Of a DNA stretch of 64,000 nucleotides, positions 1,839 to 63,880 are shown piece by piece. The first letter of the stretch is position 1; each line of letters begins with the position of its first letter. The stretch is from Psychromonas sp. CNPT3 (GTDB lineage: Bacteria > Pseudomonadota > Gammaproteobacteria > Enterobacterales > Psychromonadaceae): positions 1,135,883 through 1,199,882 of the forward strand of contig NC_020802.1 in the NCBI RefSeq assembly GCF_000153405.2. Direction: 5' to 3'. Position numbers and translations under genes: made by a program. The notes beneath the pieces were generated by a model. The model was not told where the DNA came from. It searched no databases and saw nothing but the letters and a program-made list of their open reading frames with translations.

Positions 1839-2770
1839 TTAAGCTGAAAATTTGTTATAAAGGTTTACATACGATTTTTAAAATATTCAAGTTAAAACAC
1901 CTGTGCTGATATTATCATCGCGTGTTGTAAATTCCATGCTCAACCCGACAGGTGTAGGTAAAGAAATAATAAGAATGAACTTCAATGTTGAATTTATATT
2001 TACGAATATAATGGTCTATATTTTTATAGTGTAAACTTTGATAGTCAATATTTTATAAAATAAAAGCACATGGTTCAAGAGGGAATGCCCTGTCCTGATT
2101 GTTGTTGTCTTTTTTGTGATCTATATTAGATATTTTTAACGTTAGAGAAAAATAGGCGTTTTTGCACAACAGTGATCTTGGCTACAAAGTTAATCTTTTA
2201 GATCTGTGATATTAATTATTTTGAGTGCTTTTATATGCAGAAAAAGGGGGAAGGGGTCAGATTTAAAACTTACTTTTCTTGTTTTTTTAGTGGATTATCG
2301 TTATTTAGAACTATTGTTAAGAATCTGCTTGTACAAAAAAGGGATCCGTATTTTTTAGGATCTTTAATCGGTTTTTAGTATCGGACTTTTAGCGGTCGCA
2401 TTGATTTACTATGCTTGGGTTAAGGGGGAAAAAGAAAAAGAGAGTTGCTAGGAATTGACTTAAATTATTCTTCAGAATACATTTAGAAGGGTATTATTGT
2501 GACCTTTTTTTAGACATTTAAACGCCAAAAGTAACAAAGTAATAGTAGCGTATGGTATCTTTATATTAGATGATAAAGTACACTGAATCTTAAGCTTGGT
2601 GGCTTATGGTCGGCCATAAATCAGTCAATCGAAATGAGTCGAGCTACATTGCGTATTTTTTTATATTCTCCGTTATATATTTTATATAATATTCACTTTT
2701 TAAGTGCAGTTACTTTTGTAAAATATTTTCATCATATCTAAGTGATCTTATCTAATCTTATCTTGGTGTC
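1839..2770. other. AT-rich non-coding stretch with decayed fragments
   Basis: About 930 bases without a convincing gene. A short plus-strand reading around 2365-2450 (a hydrophobic segment then a KGEKEKESC tail and stop) looks like the end of a small membrane protein, but its upstream part sits in another frame, so it is probably a relic. The phrase GGGGTCAGATTT at about 2253-2266 resembles sequence often seen at edges of decayed mobile elements; nothing here proves that. The promoter of the divergent-looking DUF11 gene should lie just above 1838. Confidence 0.4.
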
Positions 2771-2943
2771 TTAGCGAGGATTGGGGTTAGATGCATTGAT
2801 AGCATTCATTACTTGCGGTGTTTCTGTTATTTTTAGCAACGCATATTGACTGCGCCACGCGTGGTCAAATAACGTCTCTAAAACGCTGACGACTCGGCGT
2901 TCCATAATAAGGATGTCTTTGAGCTGCTGTTTATCCCCTTTTC
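2771..2943 (-). pseudogene. Unidentified gene 3' remnant
   Basis: Reverse-strand reading of about 56 codons directly after a TGA and ending in TAA at 2771-2773. It contains the protein-like stretch ILIMERRVVSVLETLFDHAW followed by RSQYALLKITETPQVMNAIN. Composition and amphipathic helices look like real coding sequence, but no start codon or SD is present. I do not recognise the family. It could belong with the FUSC remnant that follows or be the tail of a separate lost gene. Confidence 0.35.
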
Positions 2944-3203
2944 ATTATTTTATGATATATGGCATTAGTGCACTTTATTCTTTGATGTTTTTATTGAGTA
3001 ATTTAAATGATAAACTCGTTTAGAGCGGGATATTTGTAAGCTACGTGCGTGGATCAAATAATGGTCAATAAACAGCCCCAAACAACATTAATGGCGTGTC
3101 ACTTCGCCATGTAAAAATCTTCAGATCCAGATCCAGCGACTAAAATGGTTGCATATGAATATTTCCCCTTCACCCAGTAAATGCTGATAACAAGGCGCAC
3201 TAA

Positions 3204-3500
3204 TCATAAAACATCATGTAAAAACAGGCTATTGGTAGGTAATAAAAATAAAGAAAAGCCTAAAAAGGTCCCAATTAGCGTTTCCCATAAACGTTGACTC
3301 GCTTTAGTTAATACATATCCCATGTAAGACTCGGGGCCCATTACCACAATAATGGTTATCTCTGCGCATCTGGAATACAGAAAATTAAAAATAGGGACAA
3401 TAAGCAAAGCTATCGCACAAGCAATCACGAGCGTAAAATATGTAATACGCGTTGATGACGAATAACAAAATGAGCGGATAAGCGTATCGGTATCTCTTTA
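3204..3500 (-). pseudogene. FUSC-type (YccS/AaeB-like) transporter remnant
   Basis: Reverse strand. An upstream frame reads IPIRLSAHFVIRH, the entry motif of a FUSC membrane domain, and then shifts frame near 3440 into TLVIACAIALLIVPIF with a downstream SQRLWETLIGTFLGFSLFLLP, the Arg-x-x-x-x-x-Gly-Thr-x-x-Gly motif of FUSC/aromatic-acid efflux proteins. The N-terminal half and the cytoplasmic C-terminal domain are missing, and the surviving piece is about 95 codons against more than 600 in intact members. This is a degraded efflux pump gene; no function is expected. Confidence 0.6.
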
Positions 3501-42836: not shown

Positions 42837-42987
42837 ATATAACCTTTGCGCAATATAAAAAATCTATTTTACAGGTAAAGATAATTTAAGGGTAGAGCCT
42901 TTGCGCTAAGACGACTTATTTACGCCTAAAAATCGACAAATGCCAAAAATTGATTAAGCTATACAGAGATAAAAAGAGGGGATGTCT

Positions 42988-43392
42988 ATGAATAACTTAC
43001 ACATTGCACAATATATGATTGGTAAAAGTTTATTTTTTAAAAAAGAGATGACTATCGCGTCTGCGGTTGAGATTTTATTAGCGAATCCTCAAATCGGAGG
43101 CCCTGTTTTAGATGATGTCGGTCATGTGATCGGCTGGTTATCGGAACAAGACTGTTTAGCTAAAATGCTCGAAGCCAGTTATCACTGTGAACTCGTTGCG
43201 TTGGTAGAAGATGTGATGTTTAAAGAGGTGTTGATTGTAAAATCGGATATGAATGTGTTCGATTTAGGACAAGTCATGTTAAAAAATAAACCTAAAATTT
43301 ATCCAATAGTCGATGAAAATAATCTGTTTATTGGCTTAATATCACGTAAACATGTCTTAAAAGCTATTAGTCAACAATTAGAAGATTGTTGA
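42988..43392 (+). CDS. Two-CBS-domain protein
   Basis: 134 residues from ATG 42988, which has AGAGGGG six bases ahead; the ATG at 42982 is too close to that SD. Two CBS motifs: residues about 20-70 (MTIASAVEILLANPQIGGPVLDDVGHVIGWLSEQDC) and 80-130 (LIVKSDMNVFDLGQVMLKN...YPIVDENNLFIGLISRKHVLKAI). Such pairs bind adenosyl ligands such as AMP or ATP and act as sensors, but no partner domain is present. Its 3' end lies inside the left copy of the direct duplication discussed at 43355-43500; the original convergent neighbour was aat, with which it would have overlapped by about 14 bases. Confidence 0.85.
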   Translation: MNNLHIAQYMIGKSLFFKKEMTIASAVEILLANPQIGGPVLDDVGHVIGWLSEQDCLAKMLEASYHCELVALVEDVMFKEVLIVKSDMNVFDLGQVMLKNKPKIYPIVDENNLFIGLISRKHVLKAISQQLEDC

Positions 43393-43500
43393 GAGCGTTA
43401 ACGTTTGTGCTTGCCAGCAACCTAATTTAAGCGCACTTTTTTGATATAGCTTGAGCTGTTTTATAAAATCAGCTCGGCTACTCGCTTGTACGCCTAAGCT
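43355..43500. repeat. Left copy of a ~146-bp direct duplication
   Basis: Matches 43924-44070 at an offset of 570 with about four mismatches over the core 130 bases (43371-43500). The left copy carries the CBS gene 3' end and an antisense relic of the aat 3' end. Confidence 0.9.
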
Positions 43501-43602
43501 GCGATCAGACAAAAGTGTTTAAATAGTACAAAAAATGTTCAAGTATTATATTCCCTACCGCGTTCGATATTTTTAACGAAAGACGATAAAAAGGACTTTA
43601 TT

Positions 43603-43851
43603 ATGATAAATATTATAAAATTAATGTCAGTAGGCTTTTTGTTTTTAACGCTATCTGCATGTTTTAATGACACAACTTATAGTGTTCGATATTACGTAGA
43701 GCACGAAGAGGAAACGTTCGAAACCATTTATAAAGGTTGTGAGGGCTTATCTCGTAAGAATTGCGATAATGCAAAAAAAGCAGCCTCTGAAATACAAAAC
43801 TTAAAAACGTTCGGTCGTTATTCTAAAAACTACTTGAAATATGAACAATAA
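43603..43851 (+). CDS. EexN-like small lipoprotein
   Basis: 82 residues. Signal peptide with lipobox TLSA-Cys (Cys20). The mature part is VRYYVEHEEETFETIYKGC followed by SRKNCDNAKKAASEIQNL, the V-x-YY-x-x-H-x-x-E...C...NC-x-NA-x-x-A pattern of EexN-type entry-exclusion lipoproteins of conjugative plasmids. Those block redundant DNA transfer into a cell already holding the plasmid. AAAGGAC precedes the ATG. It is the only gene in the 423 bases between two copies of a direct duplication, so it entered as an inserted cassette. No other transfer gene is nearby. Family assignment is by pattern recognition and is moderate. Confidence 0.7.
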   Translation: MINIIKLMSVGFLFLTLSACFNDTTYSVRYYVEHEEETFETIYKGCEGLSRKNCDNAKKAASEIQNLKTFGRYSKNYLKYEQ

Positions 43852-43923
43852 AAAGCCCTTAATAATTTAAGGATAAATTATGTTACTGCTATTTTTTAAA
43901 TGACACTAGCAACATAAAAAACG

Positions 43924-44070
43924 TCTCTTAAAGCTCTCAGTCAACAATTAGAAGATGGTTGAGAGCGTTAACGTTTGTGCTTGCCAGCAACCCAATTTAA
44001 GCGCATTTTTTTGATATAGCTTGAGCTGTTTTATAAAATCAGCTCGGCTACTTGCTTGTACGCCTAAGCT
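43924..44070. repeat. Right copy of the ~146-bp direct duplication
   Basis: Partner of 43355-43500. This copy encodes the true C-terminus of aat on the reverse strand and an incomplete relic of the CBS gene end on the forward strand. Confidence 0.9.
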
Positions 44071-44667
44071 TGCTAAATGTGGTGTTAGCATTTGGCAATC
44101 AATCAGTTTGCCGTTGGCTGCATGAAAATGCTGATGTAACGCAATAAAGGCCATTTTTGAGGCATTTTCGCTACGACTGAACATCGATTCCCCGCAAAAA
44201 ATTTGGCCTAGGCCAATACCATAGAGTCCGCCGACTAATTCATTACCCCTAAAAACTTCTACAGAGTGTGCCCAACCTTGTTGATGCAATTGCAGATAGG
44301 CATCGATCATCTCTGCCGTTATCCAAGTGCCCGGTTGGCCTTTACGTGGCGCTGCGCAGGCATGGATCACCTCTGAAAAGTGTTTATTGATACTCAGCGT
44401 ATAATTTTCTTTGCGTATCAGGCGGCGCATACTTTTACTAATATGTACTTTACCGGCAAGGATCGTTGCGCGTTCATTCGGGCTCCACCAAAGTAGTGGC
44501 TCTCCCTCATTATACCAAGGGAAAATACCGCGTTGATAAGCATTTATAATACGTAATGGGTGCAAATCACCACCGATGGCTAATAAGCCCTCAGGATCTT
44601 CTAATGCATGGCTGACGTTGGGGAAAAGAGTGGGGTCATTGGTTAGGGTTGTTAAATGATTTTTCAT
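43948..44667 (-). CDS. aat: Leucyl/phenylalanyl-tRNA--protein transferase
   Basis: 239 residues from MKNHLTTL at 44667; a longer frame to 44703 would overlap the gltA terminator and is rejected. Motifs of the family: FPNVSHALEDPEGLLAIGGDL, INAYQRGIFPWYNEGEPLLWWSPNERA, HSVEVFRGNELVGGLYGIGLGQIFCGESMFSR and KLIDCQMLTPHLASLG. The enzyme adds Leu or Phe to N-terminal basic residues, marking proteins for ClpS/ClpAP. The last 40 codons fall in the right copy of the duplication and remain intact. It is downstream of gltA on the same strand, beyond its terminator. Confidence 0.93.
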   Translation of the reverse strand: MKNHLTTLTNDPTLFPNVSHALEDPEGLLAIGGDLHPLRIINAYQRGIFPWYNEGEPLLWWSPNERATILAGKVHISKSMRRLIRKENYTLSINKHFSEVIHACAAPRKGQPGTWITAEMIDAYLQLHQQGWAHSVEVFRGNELVGGLYGIGLGQIFCGESMFSRSENASKMAFIALHQHFHAANGKLIDCQMLTPHLASLGVQASSRADFIKQLKLYQKNALKLGCWQAQTLTLSTIF

Positions 44668-44683
44668 TTTCTTTCTTTTAAAT

Positions 44684-44708
44684 AAAAAAGCCAGTGTAAA
44701 CACTGGCT
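44684..44708 (-). terminator. Terminator of gltA
   Basis: AGCCAGTG-4-base loop-CACTGGCT with a T6 run on the reverse strand; 40 bases past the gltA stop. Confidence 0.8.
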
Positions 44709-44747
44709 CAATAGGATCAAGTTTTAATTAATATTAATTAAGGTTAA

Positions 44748-46040
44748 TTAATTGCAACGATCCGTCACATTATCAAATTTTTGATCGATAAGTCCGGTAT
44801 AAAGTTGGCGAGGACGACCTATTTTTTGTCCGGGTTGATCGAGCATTTCTTTCCAATGAGATATCCAGCCGATGGTCCGAGAGATAGCAAAAATCACGGT
44901 AAACATAGAGCTTGGGATACCAATAGCACGTAAAACAATACCGGAATAAAAATCAACATTAGGATAAAGTTTTTTCTCGATGAAATAGGGATCTTCAAGC
45001 GCAATGCGCTCAAGTTCCATCGCCACATCAAGGAGTGGATCTTTTATTTTAAGATCGCTTAATACCGCGTGGCAGGTCTTACGCATAACCGTTGCTCTAG
45101 GATCGTGACTTTTATAAACGCGATGACCAAAACCCATTAAGCGGAATGGGTCGTCTTTGTCTTTAGCACGAGCCACGAACTCAGGAATACGATCAACGGT
45201 GCCAATTTCTTCGAGCATTTCTAGACACGCTTCATTGGCGCCACCATGTGCAGGGCCCCAAAGAGAGGCAATCCCAGCTGCAATACATGCAAAAGGATTT
45301 GCGCCTGACGATCCGGCTAAGCGCACGGTTGAGGTTGAGGCATTTTGCTCATGATCTGCATGTAAAATAAATATTTTATCCATTGCGCGCTCAAGAACAG
45401 GATTGACGACATACTCTTCACACGGCACGGCAAACATCATTTTCAAAAAGTTACCCGCATAAGAAAGAGAGTTATCTGGGTAAATAAAAGGTTGTCCTTG
45501 CGAGTATTTATAGCTCATCGCAGCCAAAGTTGGCATTTTTGATATCAAGCGATAGGCTGCGATTTCACGATGTGATTCATTATTTATATCTAAAGAGTCA
45601 TGGTAAAAGGCGGAAAGGGCGCCAACAACACCCACCATTAATGCCATCGGGTGTGAATCACGGCGAAAACCGGAATAAAGCTTAACAAGTTGCTCATGCA
45701 ACATCGTATGTCGTAGTACAGTGCGATGAAAATCATCAAACTGTTTTTTATCGGGTAAAGTACCATTTAAAAGAAGATAACAGACTTCTAAATAATCTGA
45801 TTTTTCGGCAAGTTGCTCAATCGGGTAACCTCGATATTGCAAAATTCCGGCGTCTCCATCGATATAAGTGATGCTTGATTGGCATGATGCAGTGGCAAGA
45901 AACCCTGGATCATAAGTAAAATAACCTGTTTTTCCTAATGCGCGAATATCAATAACATCATTACCCGCAGTGCCCTTGAGTATAGGAAGCTCAATAGGCT
46001 CTTGGCCTGGTAAATGTAATATTGCTTTTTGATCTGACAT
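44748..46040 (-). CDS. gltA: Citrate synthase
   Basis: 430 residues from MSDQKAIL at 46040; four extra codons to 46052 are possible. It condenses acetyl-CoA and oxaloacetate. It follows E. coli Glt[37 protein letters not shown], the active-site [37 protein letters not shown] and [17 protein letters not shown], typical of the large NADH-sensitive hexameric type. It is divergent from sdhC, the conserved gammaproteobacterial layout; the shared 377-base gap holds hairpins. Confidence 0.96.
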
Positions 46041-60164: not shown

Positions 60165-60168
60165 TACG

Positions 60169-60237
60169 CTAACAACAGGTTAAAATAGGCCGTTACACTC
60201 TGTGTAACGGCCTATTTTTTTATGTGTCATACCGGCT
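60169..60237. repeat. Left copy of a 69-bp duplication at the IS6 island border
   Basis: Matches 63812-63880 at an offset of 3643, with one mismatch over the last 59 bases and about 8 of 10 matches in the first ten. It contains the chemoreceptor terminator and ends in the GGCT shared with the left IS end. Confidence 0.9.
60184..60221 (+). terminator. Terminator of the Cache chemoreceptor gene
   Basis: A 15-bp stem (AATAGGCCGTTACAC with its complement) and loop TCT followed by T-run. Confidence 0.9.
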
Positions 60238-63021: not shown

Positions 63022-63811
63022 GGCTTTGTTGCAATACTAAATCCACTTTGTCTTTTTGATACAGTTAAGCAACTCGGTAGCTATTAGGCATCCCGAGGTG
63101 TGTAAACTTATTTAATATCGATGCCCCTAGCAAATTAAGTTACCGTGAAATAGAAGAGATATTCGCAGAGCGTAACATTCACTTTGACCACTCAACGTTA
63201 AACCGTTGGGTTATCAAATATGCACCTCAACTTGAAGCCCGCTTTAGAAAAAGAAAGCGTCGAGTGGCTAGGTCATGGCGAATGGATGAAACGTATATCA
63301 AAATAAAAGGTAAGTGGGTCTATTACTATTGTGCGGTCGATAAGCATGGCGCCATCATTGATTTTTATTTGAGTGAACATCGTGATGAGCCCGCAGCACG
63401 GGCATTCTTTGAAAAAGCGATAGGCAGCAGTGGATTGCCAGATAAAGTTGTTATTGACCAAAGTGGCTCTAATATCGCTGTGCTAGATACCATCAATGTA
63501 CGTCTTTGGTTGTCTGGATATATGCTTTCAATGATTGAAGTGCTCACGGTTAAATACCTCAATAATATAGTTGAGCAAAGCCATCGAAAAGTGAAAGGTA
63601 AAATGCATCAATGCTTAGGATGGAAGTCTTGAATTGGTGCAGAATCAACATTAGCTGGTATTGAGCTTTGCTCCATGATGAAGCAAGGACAGATGATTCA
63701 CTCAGAAGGGATGACACCATGGGATAAATTTTATTCTTTAGCTGCATAATTGTATATGAGGAAAAGAGTCTCTTTAATTTAGAACGCACAATCTGTGTTT
63801 GCGATAGAACC
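63022..63811 (+). mobile_element. IS6-family insertion sequence, copy 2 (790 bp, degenerate)
   Basis: Left end GGCTTTGTTGCAA (63022), right end inverted GGTTCTATCGCAAA (63798-63811). From about 63131 on it is nearly identical to copy 1, but the first 110 bases differ, so the left end may derive from a different IS6-type element. No target duplication. Confidence 0.8.
63131..63749 (+). pseudogene. IS6-family transposase pseudogene
   Basis: Lacks the first 25 or so residues; begins in KLSYREIEEIFAERNIHFDHST. The DDE core matches copy 1 (SWRMDETYIK, VVIDQSGSN, NNIVEQSHRKVKGKMHQCLGWKS), then a TGG-to-TGA change at 63630-63632 stops translation; the frame continues to the natural end FYSLAA at 63749. 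Comparing the copies shows the ancestral protein ended in HSEGMTPWDKFYSLAA. Confidence 0.85.
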
Positions 63812-63880
63812 CTAATAACACGTTAAAATAGGCCGTTACACTCTGTGTAACGGCCTGTTTTTTTATGTGTCATACCGGCT
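63812..63880. repeat. Right copy of the 69-bp duplication
   Basis: Begins exactly at the right IS6 end and repeats 60169-60237, including a second copy of the chemoreceptor terminator (63827-63864). Confidence 0.9.

Follow-up and report, generated by a model that had tools for sequence, protein, structure and literature searches.

Why does a solitary gene of plasmid entry-exclusion type lie on a bacterial chromosome between two copies of a junction of host genes? The gene in question is found in a 64,000-nucleotide stretch of the chromosome of Psychromonas sp. CNPT3 (NC_020802.1, positions 1,135,883–1,199,882; the whole of this stretch is referred to below as the window), where a lipoprotein of the EexN family is encoded between the gene of a CBS-domain protein and aat (Table 1). 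The best explanation overall, towards which we lean slightly, is a solitary chromosomal entry-exclusion gene (eex) whose product carries an address in the form of a VirB5-like tail and which arrived by an insertion that duplicated the junction.

The EexN-family gene and its duplicated surroundings

The window protein matched the NF033894 (EexN) profile over residues 7–63 with 43.3 bits against a cut-off of 33, in keeping with the exclusion-type identity that an earlier note had read from the sequence; Pfam gave no match. The cysteine at residue 20 is presumably lipidated, according to the lipobox rule, and the conserved region comprises C46, C54 and NCDNA at residues 53–57 (motif NC.NA). The EexN proteins of IncN, IncW, IncX and IncI2 plasmids, such as the Eex of R46 and R388, are likewise small lipoproteins with a two-cysteine/NC.NA region that score above the cut-off; in R46 and R388 the gene lies between two type IV secretion system (T4SS) genes, the upstream one being VirB5 by Pfam. 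Unlike the plasmid genes, the window gene is chromosomal and alone, with no T4SS genes found and with duplicated host junctions on both sides. Since neither VirB4 (PF03135) nor VirB5 (PF07996) was matched in the genome, it is an orphan member of the EexN family. The usual setting of an EexN gene, a conjugation cluster beside virB5, was not encountered in this genome, a context that NF033894 does not formally require and that many of its members lack, and no remnant of VirB5 was seen upstream in the eex frame. The EexN cut-off was passed in 35 of the 394 genomes of the order. The earlier note had left unexplained how a single exclusion-type gene came with so long a target duplication; solitude in itself proved to be common in the order, and it is the flanking duplication of the host junction that is unusual.

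The window protein is nearer to the Eex proteins of conjugation operons than to the other solitary ones: a profile of nine conjugation-locus Eex sequences gave 46.9 bits and one of 13 sequences read as solitary gave 31.5 bits. Leaving out each member in turn assigned eight of the nine and 11 of the 13 to their own group; L083, one of the two solitary members assigned to the wrong group, turned out to have a partner VirB5. A tblastn search of plasmids with a threshold of E <= 0.01 returned 217 records, none of them reaching 60% identity and the best at 36.6%. Of these records 215 are typed as conjugative; the nearest are on enterobacterial conjugative plasmids, and two examples inspected were IncI2 with eex beside T4SS genes. 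The search of the insert DNA against plasmids that the earlier note had recommended gave no match at the DNA level. No relatives of the protein were found in phages at E 0.1 or in viral contigs, and the genome contigs yielded a single partial match in Anaerosporobacter (44% over residues 27–65). Among 60 relatives the next best match had an E value of 0.0044, and in 369 genomes of the class only the protein itself was retrieved at E 0.001.

That a 570-bp unit has duplicated the CBS/aat junction, as first proposed, is borne out by the repeat alignment; the reading frames on both sides are intact. Without gaps, the direct repeat covers 141 nt at 96% identity with a spacing of 570 bp; with one gap it has 9 differences in 153 columns (94.1%). 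An identity of about 97%, as originally given, applies to the inner part only, the whole repeat being 94–96% identical. The first direct repeat (DR1) contains the working end of the CBS gene and a dead end of aat (40 codons, 97.5% identical to Aat residues 212–251 by tblastn), and the second (DR2) the working end of aat and a dead end of the CBS gene. The unit is host DNA on both sides of a one-gene insert, that is, an insertion with a long target duplication, and eex is the only intact open reading frame of more than 50 codons in the insert. A search of the 3.05-Mb genome placed the unit at this site only and found neither a second copy of it nor a second EexN gene. Left of about position 43357 the homology is at chance level (1521 of 2000 shuffles equalled the local alignment and 302 of 2000 the anchored one). 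The left flank of DR2 was also considered as a further copy of the CBS gene and rejected, being no better than shuffles. Rfam found nothing above the gathering score at 42900–44800. The short reading frame behind eex is possibly the start of the gene that followed eex in the donor, a weak candidate that by eye had no clear likeness to ten VirB6 N-termini.

The site was compared with 23 other genomes of the genus, one per species. In the nearest relative (G004, CBS protein 85% identical) the CBS gene and aat are convergent and uninterrupted with an overlap of 15 bases, and in DR1 the CBS gene and the aat remnant, measured from stop to stop, share 15 bases as well, which agrees well with the original convergent arrangement and overlap of about 14 bases that had been postulated. 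A CBS match was present in 22 of the 23 genomes (none at the chosen grade in G017), and a convergent aat match adjoins it at all 22 loci, at a distance of −15 to 287 bp in the 12 loci measured; in the remaining ten, 3 to 300 bases separate the end of the aat match from that of the CBS gene. The EexN cut-off was passed by one of the 24 genus genomes, the window's own; weaker sub-threshold matches in nine are all located elsewhere. Given 22 relatives with the convergent pair and none passing the cut-off, the unit was most simply added in the window lineage, and a search of the relatives for eex at this site without repeats found none. The description of the event as fairly recent is not secure: gene conversion is possible between repeats 570 bp apart, and the CBS part has diverged more than the aat part (5 of 30 against 4 of 123 differences, Fisher p = 0.015; p = 0.06 with a stricter left edge). 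Because nearby repeats homogenise by gene conversion and the CBS portion is the more diverged, the 94–96% identity may understate the age of the unit.

Table 1. Features of the duplicated CBS/aat junction (window positions)
Feature	Position	Strand	Basis or remark
CBS-domain protein gene	42982..43392	+	Host, intact; PF00571 60.5 bits
DR1, first copy of the CBS/aat 3' junction	43348..43500 (core 43360–43500)	.	Repeat alignment
Dead copy of the aat 3' end within DR1	43378..43500	-	tblastn, locus L021
Insert between the repeats	43501..43918, about 418–429 bp	.	GC about 28–32%, AT-rich
EexN-family lipoprotein gene, 82 residues	43603..43851	+	NF033894
Lipobox LSAC (residues 17–20)	43651..43662	+	Read from translation
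C-terminal tail NLKTFGRYSKNYLKYEQ	43798..43848	+	By analogy, putative copy of the excluded element's VirB5 tail
Short reading frame MLLLFFK-stop behind AAGGA	43880..43903	+	Sequence; weak
DR2, second copy of the junction	43919..44070 (core 43930–44070)	.	Contains the working aat 3' end
aat, leucyl/phenylalanyl-tRNA-protein transferase	43948..44703	-	Host, intact; PF03588 246.3 bits, TIGR00667 220.4 (cut-off 143.55)

Correspondence between VirB5 and Eex tails

A relation between Eex and VirB5 was first seen at locus L061, where the 3'-terminal DNA of the upstream gene recurs at the 3' terminus of eex, so that EDRQYKAGKFVKSSGIGW closes both proteins. Local BLOSUM62 scores were computed between the last 25 residues of VirB5 and of Eex, and matched pairs were compared with permuted pairings. 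For 31 pairs the matched sum was 1336 against a permuted mean of 524 (standard deviation 44), a value reached by none of 20,000 permutations; for the 26 pairs left after dereplication below 50% Eex identity the figures were 1155 and 441, again with 0 of 20,000. Neither control was significant, the matched sum being reached by 1923 of 20,000 permutations for VirB5 residues −55 to −30 against Eex tails and by 6921 of 20,000 for VirB5 tails against Eex bodies. The true partner was the best of the 31 in 22 cases in either direction. An earlier version with 33 pairs gave 0 of 100,000 permutations; two of these (L151 and L152) were dropped, their upstream genes not being VirB5 by Pfam. Of the VirB5 proteins retained, 27 score above the PF07996 cut-off, one of them (L071) being in two pieces with only the C-terminal piece used; L194 misses the cut-off by 0.1 bit and is TrbJ by NCBIfam, L117 matches VirB5 only below the cut-off, L155 matches DUF4141, and L061, with no match, was called virB5 by its position. 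The pairs were hand-picked from EexN loci with an upstream or neighbouring candidate and are not a random sample, and related plasmids among them are not fully independent. The choice of loci by the EexN profile should not create the effect, because the profile match (residues 7–63) stops before the tail. The comparison suggests that the Eex protein of a system tends to carry, at its C terminus, a copy of the tail of the VirB5 belonging to that system. The correspondence is strong as a pattern; as a mechanism it is a proposal.

Individual systems illustrate the range of the relation. In a Campylobacter plasmid, TrbJ and Eex have the common ending LENAGSSWGKSNPNALKWK, apart from the context of its first residues, and the two genes have identical 60-bp DNA ends. 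The tails read QLNAPIPQFN and QLNAPIPQFD in an Arsenophonus plasmid and TISAMFKH and TISSMFAH in an IncX4 plasmid. In genome G040, with some 5.7 kb between eex and virB5, the tails AFEDYMLGKSKTRPTYQ and AFEDYMLGKTKKRPSAN have AFEDYMLGK(S/T)K.RP in common. Five IncI2 plasmids have VirB5 proteins that are 89–98% (about 94%) identical up to the last 25 alignment columns and only 12–53% identical in the last 20, and their Eex tails switch in step. One of the five (L182, plasmid CP057707.1) has two tandem eex genes behind virB5 at 2719–3273 of the locus; the first Eex matches its own VirB5 best by a narrow margin (33 against 31). The second scores 46 with the VirB5 of a different IncI2 plasmid, L181, and at most 24 with any other, as though it were aimed at a competing plasmid. 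Four further pairs were examined after the rule had been formed, and three of them agree: one from each of two IncX4 plasmids in which the genes lie far apart (42 and 52) and TrbJ/TrbK of IncP R751 (44, next best 27). One of the IncX4 VirB5 proteins scores 67 with the Eex of another plasmid and 52 with its own, and the Eex of the other IncX4 plasmid has two VirB5 proteins tied at 42. TrbK of R751 lies between the VirB5-like TrbJ and TrbL and has a tail that copies that of TrbJ; it is annotated as a lipoprotein different from EexN, and by eye the bodies are little alike.

As far as we have seen, the correspondence is apparently new. A VirB5-like Eex tail is not mentioned in the accessible portions of PMC12624023, PMC8923210, PMC13381706, PMC9259494, PMC11045733 and PMC11294453, a set that leaves the subscription literature largely uncovered and is no proof of novelty.

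The exclusion model and its alternatives

In the mechanism that we propose, the lipoprotein would be expressed, placed in the envelope of the recipient, and would end in a short tail copying that of the VirB5 of one conjugative system, a protein of the pilus or stalk tip. On contact with a donor carrying that system, it would compete or pair with VirB5 or with its partner VirB6, and entry of the DNA would be stopped. The gene would derive from a conjugative element, and its insertion between the CBS gene and aat would have duplicated about 145 bp of their junction. Published work, as far as the accessible texts go, is consistent with such a scheme. VirB5 is found at the tip of the stalk, has been placed at the tip of the pilus and contacts VirB6 (PMC9259494, PMC11294453), so that a recipient protein with a VirB5 tail could occupy the VirB5 site or pair with VirB5. 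In RP4, expression of either TrbJ, the VirB5 homologue, or TrbK in the recipient protects it (PMC11045733); the tail model could explain the protection by TrbJ. The C-terminal region of TrbK of pKPC_UVA01 is essential (PMC8923210). F-type exclusion offers a comparison, a recipient inner-membrane protein interacting there with a T4SS component of the donor (PMC12624023); the donor partner is TraG, which is VirB6-like, the text available naming only TraS/TraG.

If the tail rule applies, the VirB5 of the excluded element should have a tail similar to NLKTFGRYSKNYLKYEQ. Judged by analogy, the orphan most likely makes its host immune to a conjugative element with a VirB5 that ends approximately in ...FGRYSKNYLKYEQ. 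More generally, EexN-type proteins could be VirB5 decoys in which an exchangeable tail acts as the specificity address, solitary genes being portable immunity readable from the last 15–20 residues; for this wider proposal we consider the chances to be about even. Because the tail copies virB5 DNA, eex genes would tend to lie between direct repeats and be swappable by recombination. A tail shared with VirB5 would be a simple and testable answer to the question of the donor-side target of EexN and TrbK. Such a readable code would predict from sequence which plasmids a cell resists, cells with orphan genes included, and would be useful in practice, conjugation being a main route by which antibiotic resistance spreads.

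Several results weigh against this interpretation. The tail rule is not universal: in nine of the 31 pairs, whichever the direction of comparison, the true partner is not the top match, and with 33 pairs the true partner ranked only fourth among the Eex proteins for R46 (score 21), sixth for R388 (22) and 15th for L195 (19). In the fourth of the later pairs, from Klebsiella quasipneumoniae NZ_CP058863.1 (L196 3001–3234 / L205), Eex scores 15 with its own VirB5 tail; this gene adjoins a replication gene, away from virB5, and its product is either an exception to the rule or aimed at another plasmid. The window tail itself reached a best score of 24 against 33 upstream-protein tails, 31 of them counted as VirB5; its last 27 residues had no tblastn match in plasmids and its pattern no exact match in viral contigs. 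PF07996 gave eight matches in the 158 relatives searched, none of them in the genus. In the order, the loci read often have an EexN-family gene with no T4SS gene nearby, and such genes may serve other functions; a single-sequence structure model of the window protein was poor (mean predicted local distance difference test score 57.9) and was not used.

One alternative is that the likeness of the tails is a by-product of DNA duplication, a new eex landing behind virB5, carrying off its 3' end and leaving the two tails to drift without function. DNA of the virB5 3' end is indeed repeated at the eex 3' end in six of 17 plasmid loci, as well as in L061, but the other 11 of the 17 have likeness between the proteins with no likeness detected in the DNA, although some of these pairs are weak. 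Likeness over kilobase distances, the concerted switching in IncI2 and the match of the second Eex of L182 to the VirB5 tail of another IncI2 plasmid also speak against drifting leftovers, and we regard this account as distinctly improbable; function is preferred because of the likeness of non-adjacent genes, the IncI2 switching and the pairs examined after the rule. A somewhat unlikely alternative that has to be reckoned with is that the window gene encodes a common envelope lipoprotein with no exclusion activity, or is a decaying leftover. Many EexN-family genes lie beside unrelated chromosomal genes, the gene is present in one genome of the genus only, and in a family rich in solitary EexN genes (not all of its EexN matches being above the cut-off) none of the 18 genomes searched had a VirB5 match, which leaves the tails of these proteins unmatched. 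Against it stand the intact frame, the lipobox, the conserved cysteines with NC.NA and the greater nearness to conjugation-type Eex.

The solitary exclusion gene that we prefer could have reached the junction in more than one way, and the long duplication of host DNA around one foreign gene is a smaller puzzle than the tail correspondence. It seems to us slightly more likely than not that the route was a local accident with no mobile element, either a repair-linked tandem duplication of the junction that took up foreign DNA or a crossover with a small circle of junction and eex. This concerns the route only and is compatible with the explanation given above, eex being kept by chance or for its usefulness. 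At L106 (9452–9827) in the same genome a 125-bp gene junction stands in three tandem copies, no mobile gene being seen there, and by eye part of the CBS 3' end is duplicated at the CBS/aat junction of another species (L030); capture of a whole foreign eex with its ribosome-binding site would nevertheless be required, and nothing shows a donor. Alternatively, the unit could be the remnant of an integrated conjugative or mobilizable element whose site-specific recombinase used the aat 3' end for attachment; the element would have come with a copy of that end and later have lost nearly everything else, the repeats being attL and attR and eex the last gene left. Long imperfect repeats at the 3' end of a gene are known for integration sites (phage 21 and e14 in icd), eex genes belong to conjugative elements and both host genes are intact. 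We nonetheless think such a remnant unlikely: the unit has one complete gene and no integrase, VirB4 and VirB5 were not matched in the genome, none of the 22 other genomes of the genus that have both genes showed a large insertion between them, and the repeat extends into both genes where restoration of aat needs only one. A local duplication capturing foreign DNA or a single crossover with a small circle is tentatively favoured over the remnant of a larger element because the unit has no recombinase and no further copy, the relatives have no comparable insertion, and duplications occur at L106 and L030.

Related observations in the family and the genome

Eighty-three EexN loci were scanned for flanking repeats over 1 kb on each side. 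Repeats bordering eex were present in L061 and L118 and, more weakly, in L122 and L160, with weak matches (E 0.003–0.009) in L134, L141, L144, L165 and L167; tandem eex genes (L068, L073) and arrays resembling clustered regularly interspaced short palindromic repeats (CRISPR; L072) were set aside, and no second solitary eex between host-junction repeats was seen. In the operon-type repeats the repeated DNA is the end of virB5 and forms the Eex tail, whereas the window repeats are unrelated host DNA outside the eex frame. The tandem solitary EexN genes of L068 (1498–1971) and L073 come from the family rich in solitary genes; the L068 copies have nearly identical bodies and different C-terminal tails (NRVGNASWN and SRPTNTGKWTD), and such tandems may be a chromosomal stock of exclusion specificities. 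EexN-family genes in L072, L074 and L077 lie within about 1.5 kb of CRISPR-like short-repeat arrays with a 60-bp period, perhaps a grouping of functions directed against plasmids.

Other close direct repeats were sought in 464 kb of the genome, comprising the window and 20 further stretches. The repeats found were transfer RNA genes (L109, L111), repetitive coding sequence (L102, L107 and a Big-like gene in the window), a 3.8-kb repeat resembling a ribosomal RNA operon (L098), an unexplained repeat (L115), the tandem triplication of L106 and a palindromic repeat (L110). The three L106 copies (genome 1450001–1470000) are 98–99% identical and lie at the junction of genes that by eye are methyltransferase-like and GFA-like. 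In L110 (14029–14487; genome 2050001–2070000), two 93% identical copies of a 165-bp intergenic element have inverted ends, TATACCAAAGGAATTAA ... TTCCTTTGGTAT, and are possibly a miniature inverted-repeat transposable element. Within the window, a 72-bp direct repeat (94%), found at full length in the genome only at 60166–60237 and 63809–63880, lies just downstream of a chemotaxis-receptor-like gene and flanks two IS6-like transposase copies, between which lies a lipoprotein gene with repeated domains that by eye are Big-like. The target duplication of IS6 elements is normally 8 bp. The segment 60166–63880 is the second lipoprotein insert in the window to lie between long duplicated host 3' sequence.
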